DNA from: Actinomycetota bacterium
GTDB taxonomy: Bacteria; Actinomycetota; Aquicultoria; Aquicultorales; Aquicultoraceae
Assembly (NCBI GenBank): GCA_018333515.1
Contig: JAGXSZ010000022.1
Location: 1-64,000 of the forward strand
Direction: 5' to 3'
DNA length: 64,000 nucleotides
The stretch's first letter is position 1. Each line of letters opens with the position of its first letter. Shown in pieces: positions 281-57,347 of this stretch. The position numbers and the translations under genes were made by a program. The notes beneath the pieces are model-generated. The model was not told where the DNA came from, did no database searches, and saw only the letters and a list, made by a program, of their open reading frames with translations.

Positions 281-1831
281 ATGAAAAAAGCATTGGTTAT
301 AATGATGGCTTTGGCGTTGTTGTTCGCGATGGGCGGCATGGCGCTCGCGAAACAGGAGCCCGCAGGCGCTCCGGGCAATATCGTCGCTAGCGACTATGAT
401 ATTTCCGGCAAGAACTGGTTGTACTACGAGGAAGGCAAACCCGCTACCTCAGGTTCCTACACCGGTTCGACGGGTTTTGGCTTAAGCACCCACCCCTACG
501 GCACCTGGAACAGCCCGTATACGGCCGGCGTTGACGGCTACAACTACAACGACGCCCAGGACTACGTTGCGGGCGGCAAGATGGTCGACCGCGACGGCGA
601 CGGCGAATTTACCGATGACGGCGTATTCACGTCCGGCCCGCACGGCGGCTACCTCACATCCACCCACAGGTGCCGTGAGTGCCACGCGGTCCACCGCGCG
701 GCGGGCAAGTTCAAGTTGCTCCGCTCGGACACCAGGTTCGAGGCGTGCGATTGGTGCCACGGCACCGGCGCGGGCTCTGGATACAACATCCAGATGGACA
801 ACAACGACGCCTTTACCACCGAGTACAACGTTGGCCACACCATGGGCTTCGGCATAAGCACCGGCAAGTGGAAAGCGCCGGACGATACCTACCCGGCATT
901 TACGCCTAACTACTGGCAGGGCGGTTTCTCTTGCTTCGACTGCCACAGCCCGCACGCCAACCCGGCGCGCATGCTCGGCTTCAACAACGCCGGCAGGCCG
1001 GTCGGTATCGTCGCTATCGACGGAACCGGCAACGTAAAGGGCCAAGTATACGGTATCGTAAACTCAGGCGGTGACGACTGGGCTACCGCGCTCAAGAAGG
1101 ATGACAACCCGCAGGGCACCAACAAGCCGTTCTGGAAATCCGGCAGTTGGCTCTTGATCAAGAACCCGGACCGCGAGATCGCAAGTACTACGTCGACAAT
1201 CGAGAGCGGTATCTTGAAGCTCGGCGGCAAGAAGATGTCGGAGATAACCTTCGACGCGAAGAACCAGCCCATACTGGACGCGGAGGTTTCCTCGATTACC
1301 ATCAATCCGGGCCAGGAGATTCCGGACAACATAGTTGGTGGTTTGCGTGAGTTCGACAAGAACACGAGCTATCCGGTCAACAAGATAGCCATCGACTGGG
1401 ACGCCCCGATGGGTAACGCCAGGACGCTCTGGAAGCATACAACGGCCGGCGTAACAGCGAAGTTCCCCAAGAGCACCGGTGAGGCAATCGGCTTCCTCGG
1501 CATGAACGTGCGCCGCTCAGAGGCAATCGCTACCTGGATCAACACAGATACCACAAGCGACTATACCTTCACCGAGAAATACACGACCGACGCTACCAAT
1601 TCGAAGGGTGTCGCTTTCAGCGCGACAGCACCGTGTAACGTCTGGAGCGTAAGCGACTTCTGCACCGACTGCCATGACGGTAACGCCGGCAAGCACACGG
1701 TGCAAGCCCCGCTCTTCAGCGAGGACCGCGCGCTCAGGGGTACTACTACCTCGGGAAGCGACGGCAACACGGTTAACGACAGGGCGCACTACGACCTGGC
1801 ATACGGCCACGACTCGCAGCCAAGGCACTGA
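281..1831 (+). CDS. Exported multiheme c-type cytochrome (N-terminal part, ends at in-frame UGA)
   Basis: Secreted or surface c-type cytochrome likely to carry electrons outside the membrane. Residues 1-23 form a signal peptide ending ALA before KQEPAG. Four CxxCH heme sites start near residues 131 (CRECH), 156 (CDWCH), 218 (CFDCH) and 461 (CTDCH), with extra histidines that could be distal ligands. The reading frame stops at TGA 1829-1831, but the same frame continues without another stop to 2458 and holds three more CxxCH sites. The stop therefore appears to lie inside one 725-codon, seven-heme protein. The module GPHGxYxxSxxRCxxCHAxHRA is shared with the C-terminus of the large surface protein at 49145-54181. 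Start chosen at ATG 281 for its Shine-Dalgarno and signal peptide. Confidence 0.85.
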   Translation: MKKALVIMMALALLFAMGGMALAKQEPAGAPGNIVASDYDISGKNWLYYEEGKPATSGSYTGSTGFGLSTHPYGTWNSPYTAGVDGYNYNDAQDYVAGGKMVDRDGDGEFTDDGVFTSGPHGGYLTSTHRCRECHAVHRAAGKFKLLRSDTRFEACDWCHGTGAGSGYNIQMDNNDAFTTEYNVGHTMGFGISTGKWKAPDDTYPAFTPNYWQGGFSCFDCHSPHANPARMLGFNNAGRPVGIVAIDGTGNVKGQVYGIVNSGGDDWATALKKDDNPQGTNKPFWKSGSWLLIKNPDREIASTTSTIESGILKLGGKKMSEITFDAKNQPILDAEVSSITINPGQEIPDNIVGGLREFDKNTSYPVNKIAIDWDAPMGNARTLWKHTTAGVTAKFPKSTGEAIGFLGMNVRRSEAIATWINTDTTSDYTFTEKYTTDATNSKGVAFSATAPCNVWSVSDFCTDCHDGNAGKHTVQAPLFSEDRALRGTTTSGSDGNTVNDRAHYDLAYGHDSQPRH

Positions 1832-1837
1832 GGCCGC

Positions 1838-2458
1838 ATGATGGTGTTCAATCCGGAGGATGAACAAAATTTCGGCCCACACTGCCGCAACTGCCACAAG
1901 GGCTCGAGCAGGTGCGCAACGTGTCATAACACGAGCAGCACCGGCGCTGTCGTAACCAACGCCATCACGGCTTCCGACAACACTACAAACAAGTCGACCT
2001 ACACGATGGGCGCGACCAGCGATGGCCAGCCGAACACGCTCGCTCAAAACATCGGCTCGCTCGAGACAAGCAGCACCTCGTTCGCGTTCTTCAAGAAGTC
2101 CCGCACCGCTAACTGGAATTCAGACTGGAGGCAGAGCGGTACCGCGAAGACCGCTGCCGACATCGATGCGATGTGCGCCGACGACGGCTTCAGCTGGCCG
2201 CACCGCACCCTCGGTTGGAAGATGCTCAAAGACGACCTCTTCGGTCTCGACTTTGACAACAACAGGTGGGTCGGTGTTGGTGAGACAAGAACCGCTCCTA
2301 ATGGCGTCGTCGCTGTCGCGCACGACCTCGACAGCGTCTGCTTGGACTGCCACAACCCGACAGTCTGGAACGCTACGAGCGCAAGCGATCACATCGATTC
2401 GCCGACGCTTACTACAGACAACCACGACGACGAGTTGCTAACCCGCGGCTTGCCGTAA
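1838..2458 (+). CDS. Multiheme cytochrome, C-terminal part in the same frame after UGA
   Basis: This 206-residue frame carries three CxxCH sites (CRNCH, CATCH, CLDCH) and no signal peptide. It is in phase with the preceding cytochrome ORF, separated only by TGA GGC CGC. Alone it would stay in the cytoplasm, where c-type heme is not attached, so an independent function is unlikely. It may be made by readthrough or recoding of the UGA, by reinitiation at ATG 1838 (only a weak GAGG upstream), or be the tail of a gene broken by a point mutation or sequencing error. The hairpin terminator lies after this part, not after the UGA, which fits one transcriptional unit. Confidence 0.6.
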   Translation: MMVFNPEDEQNFGPHCRNCHKGSSRCATCHNTSSTGAVVTNAITASDNTTNKSTYTMGATSDGQPNTLAQNIGSLETSSTSFAFFKKSRTANWNSDWRQSGTAKTAADIDAMCADDGFSWPHRTLGWKMLKDDLFGLDFDNNRWVGVGETRTAPNGVVAVAHDLDSVCLDCHNPTVWNATSASDHIDSPTLTTDNHDDELLTRGLP

Positions 2459-55676: not shown

Positions 55677-56945
55677 TTATGTCGTTCCCGCAACTCGTTT
55701 TATAACCAGCACCACGATATCGTCGGTAAACTTGCCGGCGGCAAACTCTCTTGTAGCGTCTATAATCGAGTTGGCGATTTCTTGTGCGCCTTTCCGCGCG
55801 TTTTTTAGAACGACGTCGGCGAGGCGGCCGGCGCCGTAGAGGTCTTTGTCGCGGCGGAGTTCGATGATGCCGTCGGTATAAAAAACCATGACGTCATCCG
55901 GCTCCAGCATTATCCCACGGCTTTCGTACACATTGTCGCGGACAAGGCCGAACGCGGGGTCTTCGCCCTCGACGAACTCCACGCTTTGCAGCCGAGAACT
56001 GTAATGGATGGGATACGGGTGACCCGCGATACCGAGGTCGAGTTTGCCGGAGCGGGCATCATAAACCCCGTAAACCAGTGTCACAAAATGGCCGTTTTTA
56101 AGCTGGGCGTAAGCTACCGCGTTGCTCTTGGTCAGCGTTTTCGCGGGGTCGGGGTCGCCGAACAATGCGGAGTGTAGCGAGTACTTGACCATGGCCGCAT
56201 CGGCGGTCGCCTCAACGCCCTTGCCGGATGAATCGCCTAACGCCAGAGCCATCGTCTCTTTGCTCAACGGTATGAAGTCGTAAAAATCACCGCCCACCAC
56301 AGCCGCTTCAGTAGCCGACGCGTAGAAAATACCGAAATCCGTCTGTGACATCACCGGTGTTTTGTCCGGCAAGAAACCTCGTTGCAAAACGTCTGAGATA
56401 TGTTGCTGTTCGACAAAGAGATTGATATTGTCGATCGATACCGAGGCTTGAGCGCCGAGAGACTCGAGGAGGACCATATCGTAATCGGTAAAAGTTTTAT
56501 CCGTTTTCCGGCTTGCCGCCCACAAGACTCCGAGAGTTTGTCCCCGTAGTCCCCGCGCTATCAAGGGGACGAGCGCGAGTGAGCGTATGCCTTCGTCGTG
56601 TAAAACATTCAACGGGTACGGCGCTTCCTTGCCCGGCGAGACGATGCTCGACCTTTCTGTGCTAATTGTCTCGCTGAAGATATCGGAATTATGTCTGATG
56701 CTCTTATGGGTGATACTTTCCGGCAAGTTGTGGACAAACGGAAACCTTATGACATGCTCGGAGTCGTCGAATATGGCGATACCGCCGGCATCGCACGAGA
56801 GAAGCCTGACCGCGCTCTTTACTATCGTGGCATAGAGTGAGGTCATGTCCCTGCCGGATGATATGTCGAGCGCCGCTACTTTGAAAACCTCCAGGTCTTC
56901 GATGCGCTTGCGGATCTCGCTCTCGGCTCTTATCTGCTCGCGCAA
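55677..56945 (-). CDS. GAF-SpoIIE (PP2C) serine phosphatase, C-terminal part after in-frame UGA
   Basis: Residues ~20-180 form a GAF domain (LYATIVKSAVRLLSCDAGGI) and ~200-420 a SpoIIE/RsbU-type PP2C phosphatase (VGGDFYDFIPLSKETMALAL, GDSSGKGVEA, FYTDGIIELR, FTDDIVVLVI). Such proteins dephosphorylate anti-anti-sigma factors. It reads in the same frame as the upstream PAS ORF, separated by TGA 56958-56960. Its own best start is a TTG at 56945 with no ribosome site, so it is probably one protein with the PAS part: PAS-GAF-PP2C, 557 codons. Confidence 0.85.
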   Translation of the reverse strand: MREQIRAESEIRKRIEDLEVFKVAALDISSGRDMTSLYATIVKSAVRLLSCDAGGIAIFDDSEHVIRFPFVHNLPESITHKSIRHNSDIFSETISTERSSIVSPGKEAPYPLNVLHDEGIRSLALVPLIARGLRGQTLGVLWAASRKTDKTFTDYDMVLLESLGAQASVSIDNINLFVEQQHISDVLQRGFLPDKTPVMSQTDFGIFYASATEAAVVGGDFYDFIPLSKETMALALGDSSGKGVEATADAAMVKYSLHSALFGDPDPAKTLTKSNAVAYAQLKNGHFVTLVYGVYDARSGKLDLGIAGHPYPIHYSSRLQSVEFVEGEDPAFGLVRDNVYESRGIMLEPDDVMVFYTDGIIELRRDKDLYGAGRLADVVLKNARKGAQEIANSIIDATREFAAGKFTDDIVVLVIKRVAGTT

Positions 56946-56957
56946 GTCATGACAGAT

Positions 56958-57347
56958 TCAGTGGCCGATTTGTTTACCGTTGACCTCGGTAAGCCTGCCC
57001 GTCTTTTCGACCGGTATCAGGGTCCCGTCTTTTCTGCGCAGGTGGAGGTCGCGCACGGCAAATATCCCCCCGTCTCTAAGATATTGAGCGACGATTTCCT
57101 CGGCGCGCTCGCGTTCTTCTATCGCATGCAAATCGTAGAAATTTTTTTGGCGCACCTCTTCGATAGTAAAACCGAGTTGCTCAAGGCCCCAAGGGTTCAT
57201 ATCGAGGATTTTCAGATCGTCGATGTTGAAGATATATATTGTGTCGACAGCCGTGTCGAAGACCGCTTGCCTTGCTTGAATAAGCTCGGCGTGCGTAAAT
57301 TTACCTAAAACATCGATTTTTTCGCCGGTCGTATCCTGATCGCTCAT
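56958..57347 (-). CDS. PAS domain, N-terminal part of the PAS-GAF-PP2C gene
   Basis: A 129-residue PAS sensor domain (VDTIYIFNIDDLKILDMNPW; GFTIEEVRQKNFYDL; LRRKDGTLIPVEKTGRL). ATG 57347 has GAGGT upstream. It ends VNGKQIGH at TGA. In normal PAS proteins this point reads GHGIVRDITERKRAE; here the frame continues past the UGA as ICHDLREQIRAE, an excellent continuation. The UGA therefore interrupts the linker of one signalling protein. Confidence 0.82.
   Translation of the reverse strand: MSDQDTTGEKIDVLGKFTHAELIQARQAVFDTAVDTIYIFNIDDLKILDMNPWGLEQLGFTIEEVRQKNFYDLHAIEERERAEEIVAQYLRDGGIFAVRDLHLRRKDGTLIPVEKTGRLTEVNGKQIGH

Follow-up and report, generated by a model that had tools for sequence, protein, structure and literature searches.

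A predicted selenocysteine-containing heptaheme c-type cytochrome family in Actinomycetota

A heptaheme cytochrome gene with an in-frame UGA

The window, a stretch of 64,000 nucleotides, is contig C22 of the host genome (2.33 Mb in 40 contigs). On its forward strand, a ribosome site (GGAGG, 268-272) precedes a frame from 281 to 2458 that yields 725 residues on translation and is interrupted by a single internal stop, the TGA at 1829-1831 (codon 517), which follows a CAC codon, as had been reported from the sequence alone. The frame begins with a probable signal peptide, judged by eye (MKKALVIMMALALLFAMGGMALA, 281-349), and contains seven CxxCH heme sites: CRECH at residue 131 (671-685), CDWCH at 156 (746-760), CFDCH at 218 (932-946) and CTDCH at 461 (1661-1675) before the UGA, and CRNCH at 535 (1883-1897), CATCH at 545 (1913-1927) and CLDCH at 687 (2339-2353) after it. 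The earlier note had placed four sites before the UGA and three after it, had seen no signal peptide in the second part and had put the terminator after that part. These statements proved right: the ATG at 1838 opens the second part, in which no signal peptide was seen by eye, and a terminator-like inverted repeat followed by a run of T lies at 2571-2602, on the 3′ side of the full frame.

All seven CxxCH sites are kept in 45-46 of the 46 aligned sequences of the family; with these conserved sites and the signal peptide recognized by eye, the predicted protein has the features of a multiheme c-type cytochrome. Nearly all members also have (R/K)GLP directly before the stop codon (2444-2455 in the window), possibly a C-terminal sorting or assembly signal.

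UGA or cysteine at codon 517

Homologous loci were re-read with UGA translated as U. UGA was found at codon 517 of 28 homologues in 15 genomes of two bacterial classes: 21 come from eight genomes in the same GTDB family as the window (Actinomycetota; Candidatus Aquicultor and its relatives), and the other seven are proteins of about 30% identity from Coriobacteriia-like genomes. The own-family members all have the context GHDxxxRH-U-(G/S/A)-R, followed in nearly all 21 by FNPED and GP(H/R)CRNCH; the Coriobacteriia-like context is HDAQPRH-U-ARQM. One of the Sec cytochrome copies (L101, G008:C133) carries a further UGA and shifts frame close to its end, and is likely a decaying copy or an assembly error.

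In the search for relatives, homologues in one piece and those split by UGA coincided at the same codon. Nine members with the same motif have TGC or TGT at codon 517, and cysteine occupies this position in 15 close homologues, some of them within a UGA-bearing genome; the window's genome encodes three UGA copies and at least two Cys copies of the cytochrome. The earlier note had suggested that cysteine or selenocysteine in homologues at residue 517 would speak for selenocysteine, and UGA or Cys is what was found there. Three shorter paralogues have histidine or threonine at this position, indicating that residue 517 is dispensable in some branches.

The part of the frame on the 3′ side of the UGA aligns along its entire length with homologues, at up to 71% identity. 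Against three UGA homologues, dN/dS is 0.18-0.25 for the 200 codons after the UGA and 0.23-0.36 before it. Therefore, the downstream half is not a chance open frame.

In a tree of 41 rows computed with IQ-TREE, 15 of them Cys rows, the state at position 517 changes between U and C nine times, at least seven of these on well-supported branches. The seven distant rows all carry U, which makes a selenocysteine-containing ancestor with repeated change to cysteine plausible, a direction drawn from distant rows whose long branches meet near the root. The Sec and Cys forms appear to coexist in a single genome and to have been interchanged several times.

Selenocysteine machinery

The genome was searched for selA, selB, selC and selD, as the earlier note had proposed, and all four are present: SelB, SelA, SelD and tRNA-Sec are encoded together at C23:55785-60527. 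The tRNA-Sec scores 76.4 bits (gathering score 47), and SelD has an in-frame UGA of its own, giving SG-U-A. Among genomes that carry UGA cytochromes, SelB exceeded the cut-off in seven of eight from the window's family and in six of seven that are Coriobacteriia-like. It was not found above the cut-off in G001 (77% complete) or G396, which counts against the selenocysteine reading.

A SECIS-type hairpin downstream of the UGA

A pairing of GGCCG with CGGCC had been described in the earlier note as the only SECIS-like element, and a weak one. The pairing is real (1832-1836 with 1873-1877), but it forms the lowest part of a longer stem-loop (1829-1880, -19.5 kcal/mol), the upper part of which, GUUCA-AUCC-GGA-GGAUGAAC, had been missed. 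This upper part forms an apical hairpin at 1845-1866 with the loop GGA at 1855-1857, 23 nt after the UGA. The published bacterial SECIS (bSECIS) consensus follows E. coli fdhF (PMC13188914); the criteria applied were a distance of 16-37 nt downstream of the UGA, G in the first two loop positions, an upper stem of 4-16 bp and an MFE of -7.5 or lower. The window's hairpin fits this model with its spacing of 23 nt, its GGA loop, 9 bp interrupted by one bulged A, and an MFE of -7.6 (z -2.1); in some relatives the apical hairpin alone is weaker (-4.0 to -6.9). Like bacterial SECIS elements, it is in frame just after the UGA, within the usual 16-37 nt, and has a small loop starting with G, but its sequence is its own and its loop is only three nucleotides long.

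Every UGA in the window's GTDB family is followed by AAUCCGGAGGAU, in which the arms AUCC and GGAU pair around GGA, 23 nt from the UGA. The four codons of the hairpin encode NPED; Cys members mostly have the same residues, spelled with mixed codons. The hairpin core AATCCGGAGGAT is identical in 19 of 19 own-family UGA rows of the tree versus one of 15 Cys rows (Fisher p 1e-8, relatedness ignored), and in six of six phylogenetically independent pairs the core agrees with the presence of UGA (p about 0.03, the lowest value that six pairs can give). Hairpin energy separates UGA from Cys rows poorly, being -6 kcal/mol or lower in 25 of 26 UGA rows and nine of 15 Cys rows; the discrimination was therefore made by motif identity. 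Pairing in the lower stem is kept through sequence changes, with 94% of cells paired versus 29-58% for slid versions; three hairpin pairs have changed on both sides, and none of 500 shuffles was equally well paired. Coriobacteriia-like UGA members have other stem sequences that fold into a strong hairpin in the same position, where the loops include GUAC, GGAC, GGUCA and CGGGU, and their stems differ from one another as well (GCUAUCG-GUAC-CGAUAGC versus CCCAUCG-GGAC-CGAUGGG). Sequence comparison thus shows an RNA-level constraint linked to the UGA.

Decoding of the UGA

Comparison establishes that the position of UGA or Cys is conserved, that the frame beyond it is conserved and that selenocysteine machinery is present; the gene in the window combines a UGA aligned with Cys, a bSECIS hairpin and a genome containing selA, selB, selC and selD. 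Among the explanations offered in the earlier note, selenocysteine is the one that the homologues, the sel genes and the SECIS-type hairpin all support, and the UGA at 1829-1831 is almost certainly read as such. SelB and tRNA-Sec of the host would decode it, guided by the stem-loop just downstream with its apical GGA, and the product would be one exported c-type cytochrome with seven hemes and about 725 residues. Taken jointly with the interchange of Sec and Cys forms, we hold this account to be very probable, the insertion of selenocysteine being the part that we infer.

Decoding of UGA as selenocysteine is rarely complete, and the four-heme part retains the signal peptide. The gene might make two products, with a regulated stop at the UGA that leaves a four-heme protein under selenium shortage, and the full protein at other times. 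Such regulation would be compatible with selenocysteine insertion and additional to it, but it seems unlikely: the Cys paralogues give the full form only.

Programmed readthrough by a near-cognate tRNA inserting tryptophan or another residue would also conserve both the UGA and the frame. In one-piece homologues, however, the aligned residue is cysteine and never tryptophan or arginine, and the SECIS-type hairpin and the full selenocysteine machinery are present; readthrough of this kind, another suggestion of the earlier note, is disfavoured to the point of being very improbable. A lone stop in an otherwise open frame is what a point mutation, a pseudogene or a sequencing error would leave, but the same UGA recurs in 28 homologues from 15 separately assembled genomes, on which ground mutation and error are rejected, and purifying selection continues after it; the chance that the stop arose in this way is negligible. 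Equally hard to credit are two separate genes, the second beginning at the ATG six nucleotides after the UGA (1838), given that the codons at and beside this ATG vary among UGA members, the second part would have three heme sites and no signal peptide, and homologues exist in one piece.

Function of residue 517

The predicted selenocysteine is in the stretch from heme 4 to heme 5, adjoining His516 and seven residues beyond the invariant His510. Seven histidines outside the heme motifs are conserved (71, 121, 138, 186, 225, 510 and 641), and by count alone they could complete bis-His ligation of the seven hemes without selenocysteine. A requirement for selenocysteine as a heme ligand was considered, and no positive sign of it was seen. 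A selenylsulfide with the non-heme Cys632 (2174-2176) was also considered; this cysteine is invariant in 46 of 46 aligned sequences, including those without Sec or Cys at 517, and because it stays in the paralogues with His or Thr at 517 the selenylsulfide is not supported. Our preferred reading, at roughly even odds, is that the selenolate (thiolate in the Cys paralogues) is not a structural residue but a group between hemes 4 and 5 that is redox-active or reacts with a substrate. A bolder and doubtful proposal is that selenocysteine in the heme chain of the exported cytochrome acts as a catalytic or heme-coordinating selenolate, and that the protein serves these Actinomycetota as a terminal reductase dependent on selenium or as an electron conduit at the surface.

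In the PDB, no solved relative of the protein was found at E<=0.01, and the neighbouring genes (Wzy_C/TPR, spermine-synthase-like and NHL) indicate no clear function. In two genera, a gene for a spermine-synthase-like membrane protein lies between two Sec cytochrome copies (L041 5205-6920; L106 3620-5329). Relatives in the Anaerosomatales, an order of Coriobacteriia, can use Fe(III), sulfur or thiosulfate as the electron acceptor for growth and have 17-18 multiheme cytochromes (PMC9686372), which does not imply that the window's family belongs among them.

Relation to known selenocysteine-containing cytochromes

Selenocysteine has been proposed for the five-heme cytochrome ExtKL of Geobacter (GSU2937-2936; NF040886; PMC1914089, PMC5877670, PMC13188914). 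ExtKL resembles the protein described here: both are multiheme c-type cytochromes whose genes have an in-frame UGA for which selenocysteine is proposed, and both come from an anaerobe with sel genes. ExtKL, however, belongs to another phylum, its five hemes are in the N-terminal part and its C-terminal part has no similarity to known proteins; at E<=1, the NF040886 profile did not match the protein from the window. The octaheme tetrathionate-reductase-family cytochrome (OTR, TIGR04315) is likewise a multiheme cytochrome for which a Sec form has been reported and is annotated in GenBank (PMC13188914), but it has eight hemes versus the seven CxxCH sites here, and the TIGR04315 model gave no NCBIfam match at E<=1. 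Pfam matched only the doubled CXXCH around hemes 1-2: paired CXXCH and NrfB-like cytochromes (PF09699, PF22678) are locally similar in this stretch, but no family spans the whole protein, and NCBIfam as a whole yielded no hit above threshold. A search of the open literature, with most subscription journals outside it, found no papers on the window's family or on heptaheme cytochromes that contain selenocysteine. The cytochrome would represent a new Sec-containing multiheme family, set apart from ExtKL and OTR by the lack of a model match.

If so, it would add a multiheme family with selenocysteine in little-studied subsurface Actinomycetota, and the Sec and Cys paralogues in one genome would be a natural test of the contribution of selenium to an electron-transfer protein. 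Because there is no family model, such genes are likely annotated as two broken fragments, and counts of multiheme cytochromes in such genomes may consequently be wrong.

A second in-frame UGA in a PAS-GAF-SpoIIE phosphatase gene

The earlier note had recorded a second in-frame UGA, also following a CAC codon, at 56958-56960. It is indeed there, on the reverse strand, within the region of the PAS domain, in a gene for a PAS-GAF-SpoIIE phosphatase (55677-57347). The UGA is found at the same codon of ten genes in nine genomes, in the context (G/A)H-U-IC(R/H), and conserved hairpins lie about 30-33 nt downstream. The protein is a candidate for a second new selenoprotein family, which if true would place selenocysteine in a signalling protein with a PAS domain. 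Another selenoprotein, distinct from this one, is reported as a fusion to a phosphatase of the PP2C type (PMC2398784). One genome (G009, 97% complete) keeps the PAS UGA and its hairpin (G009:C11, locus L150), but neither SelA nor SelB nor a convincing tRNA-Sec was found in it. The sel genes form a cluster, and a single gap in the assembly could account for their absence; a recent loss of selenocysteine decoding could do so too. Some paralogues have cysteine at the position of the UGA (G007:C33, G004:C100 and G004:C131; QCTCRDI, QCICRDV), and other PAS paralogues are without both cysteines (LSIFRDI, LSIARDI), a pattern that points to a redox pair in a sensor, UxC in place of CxC.
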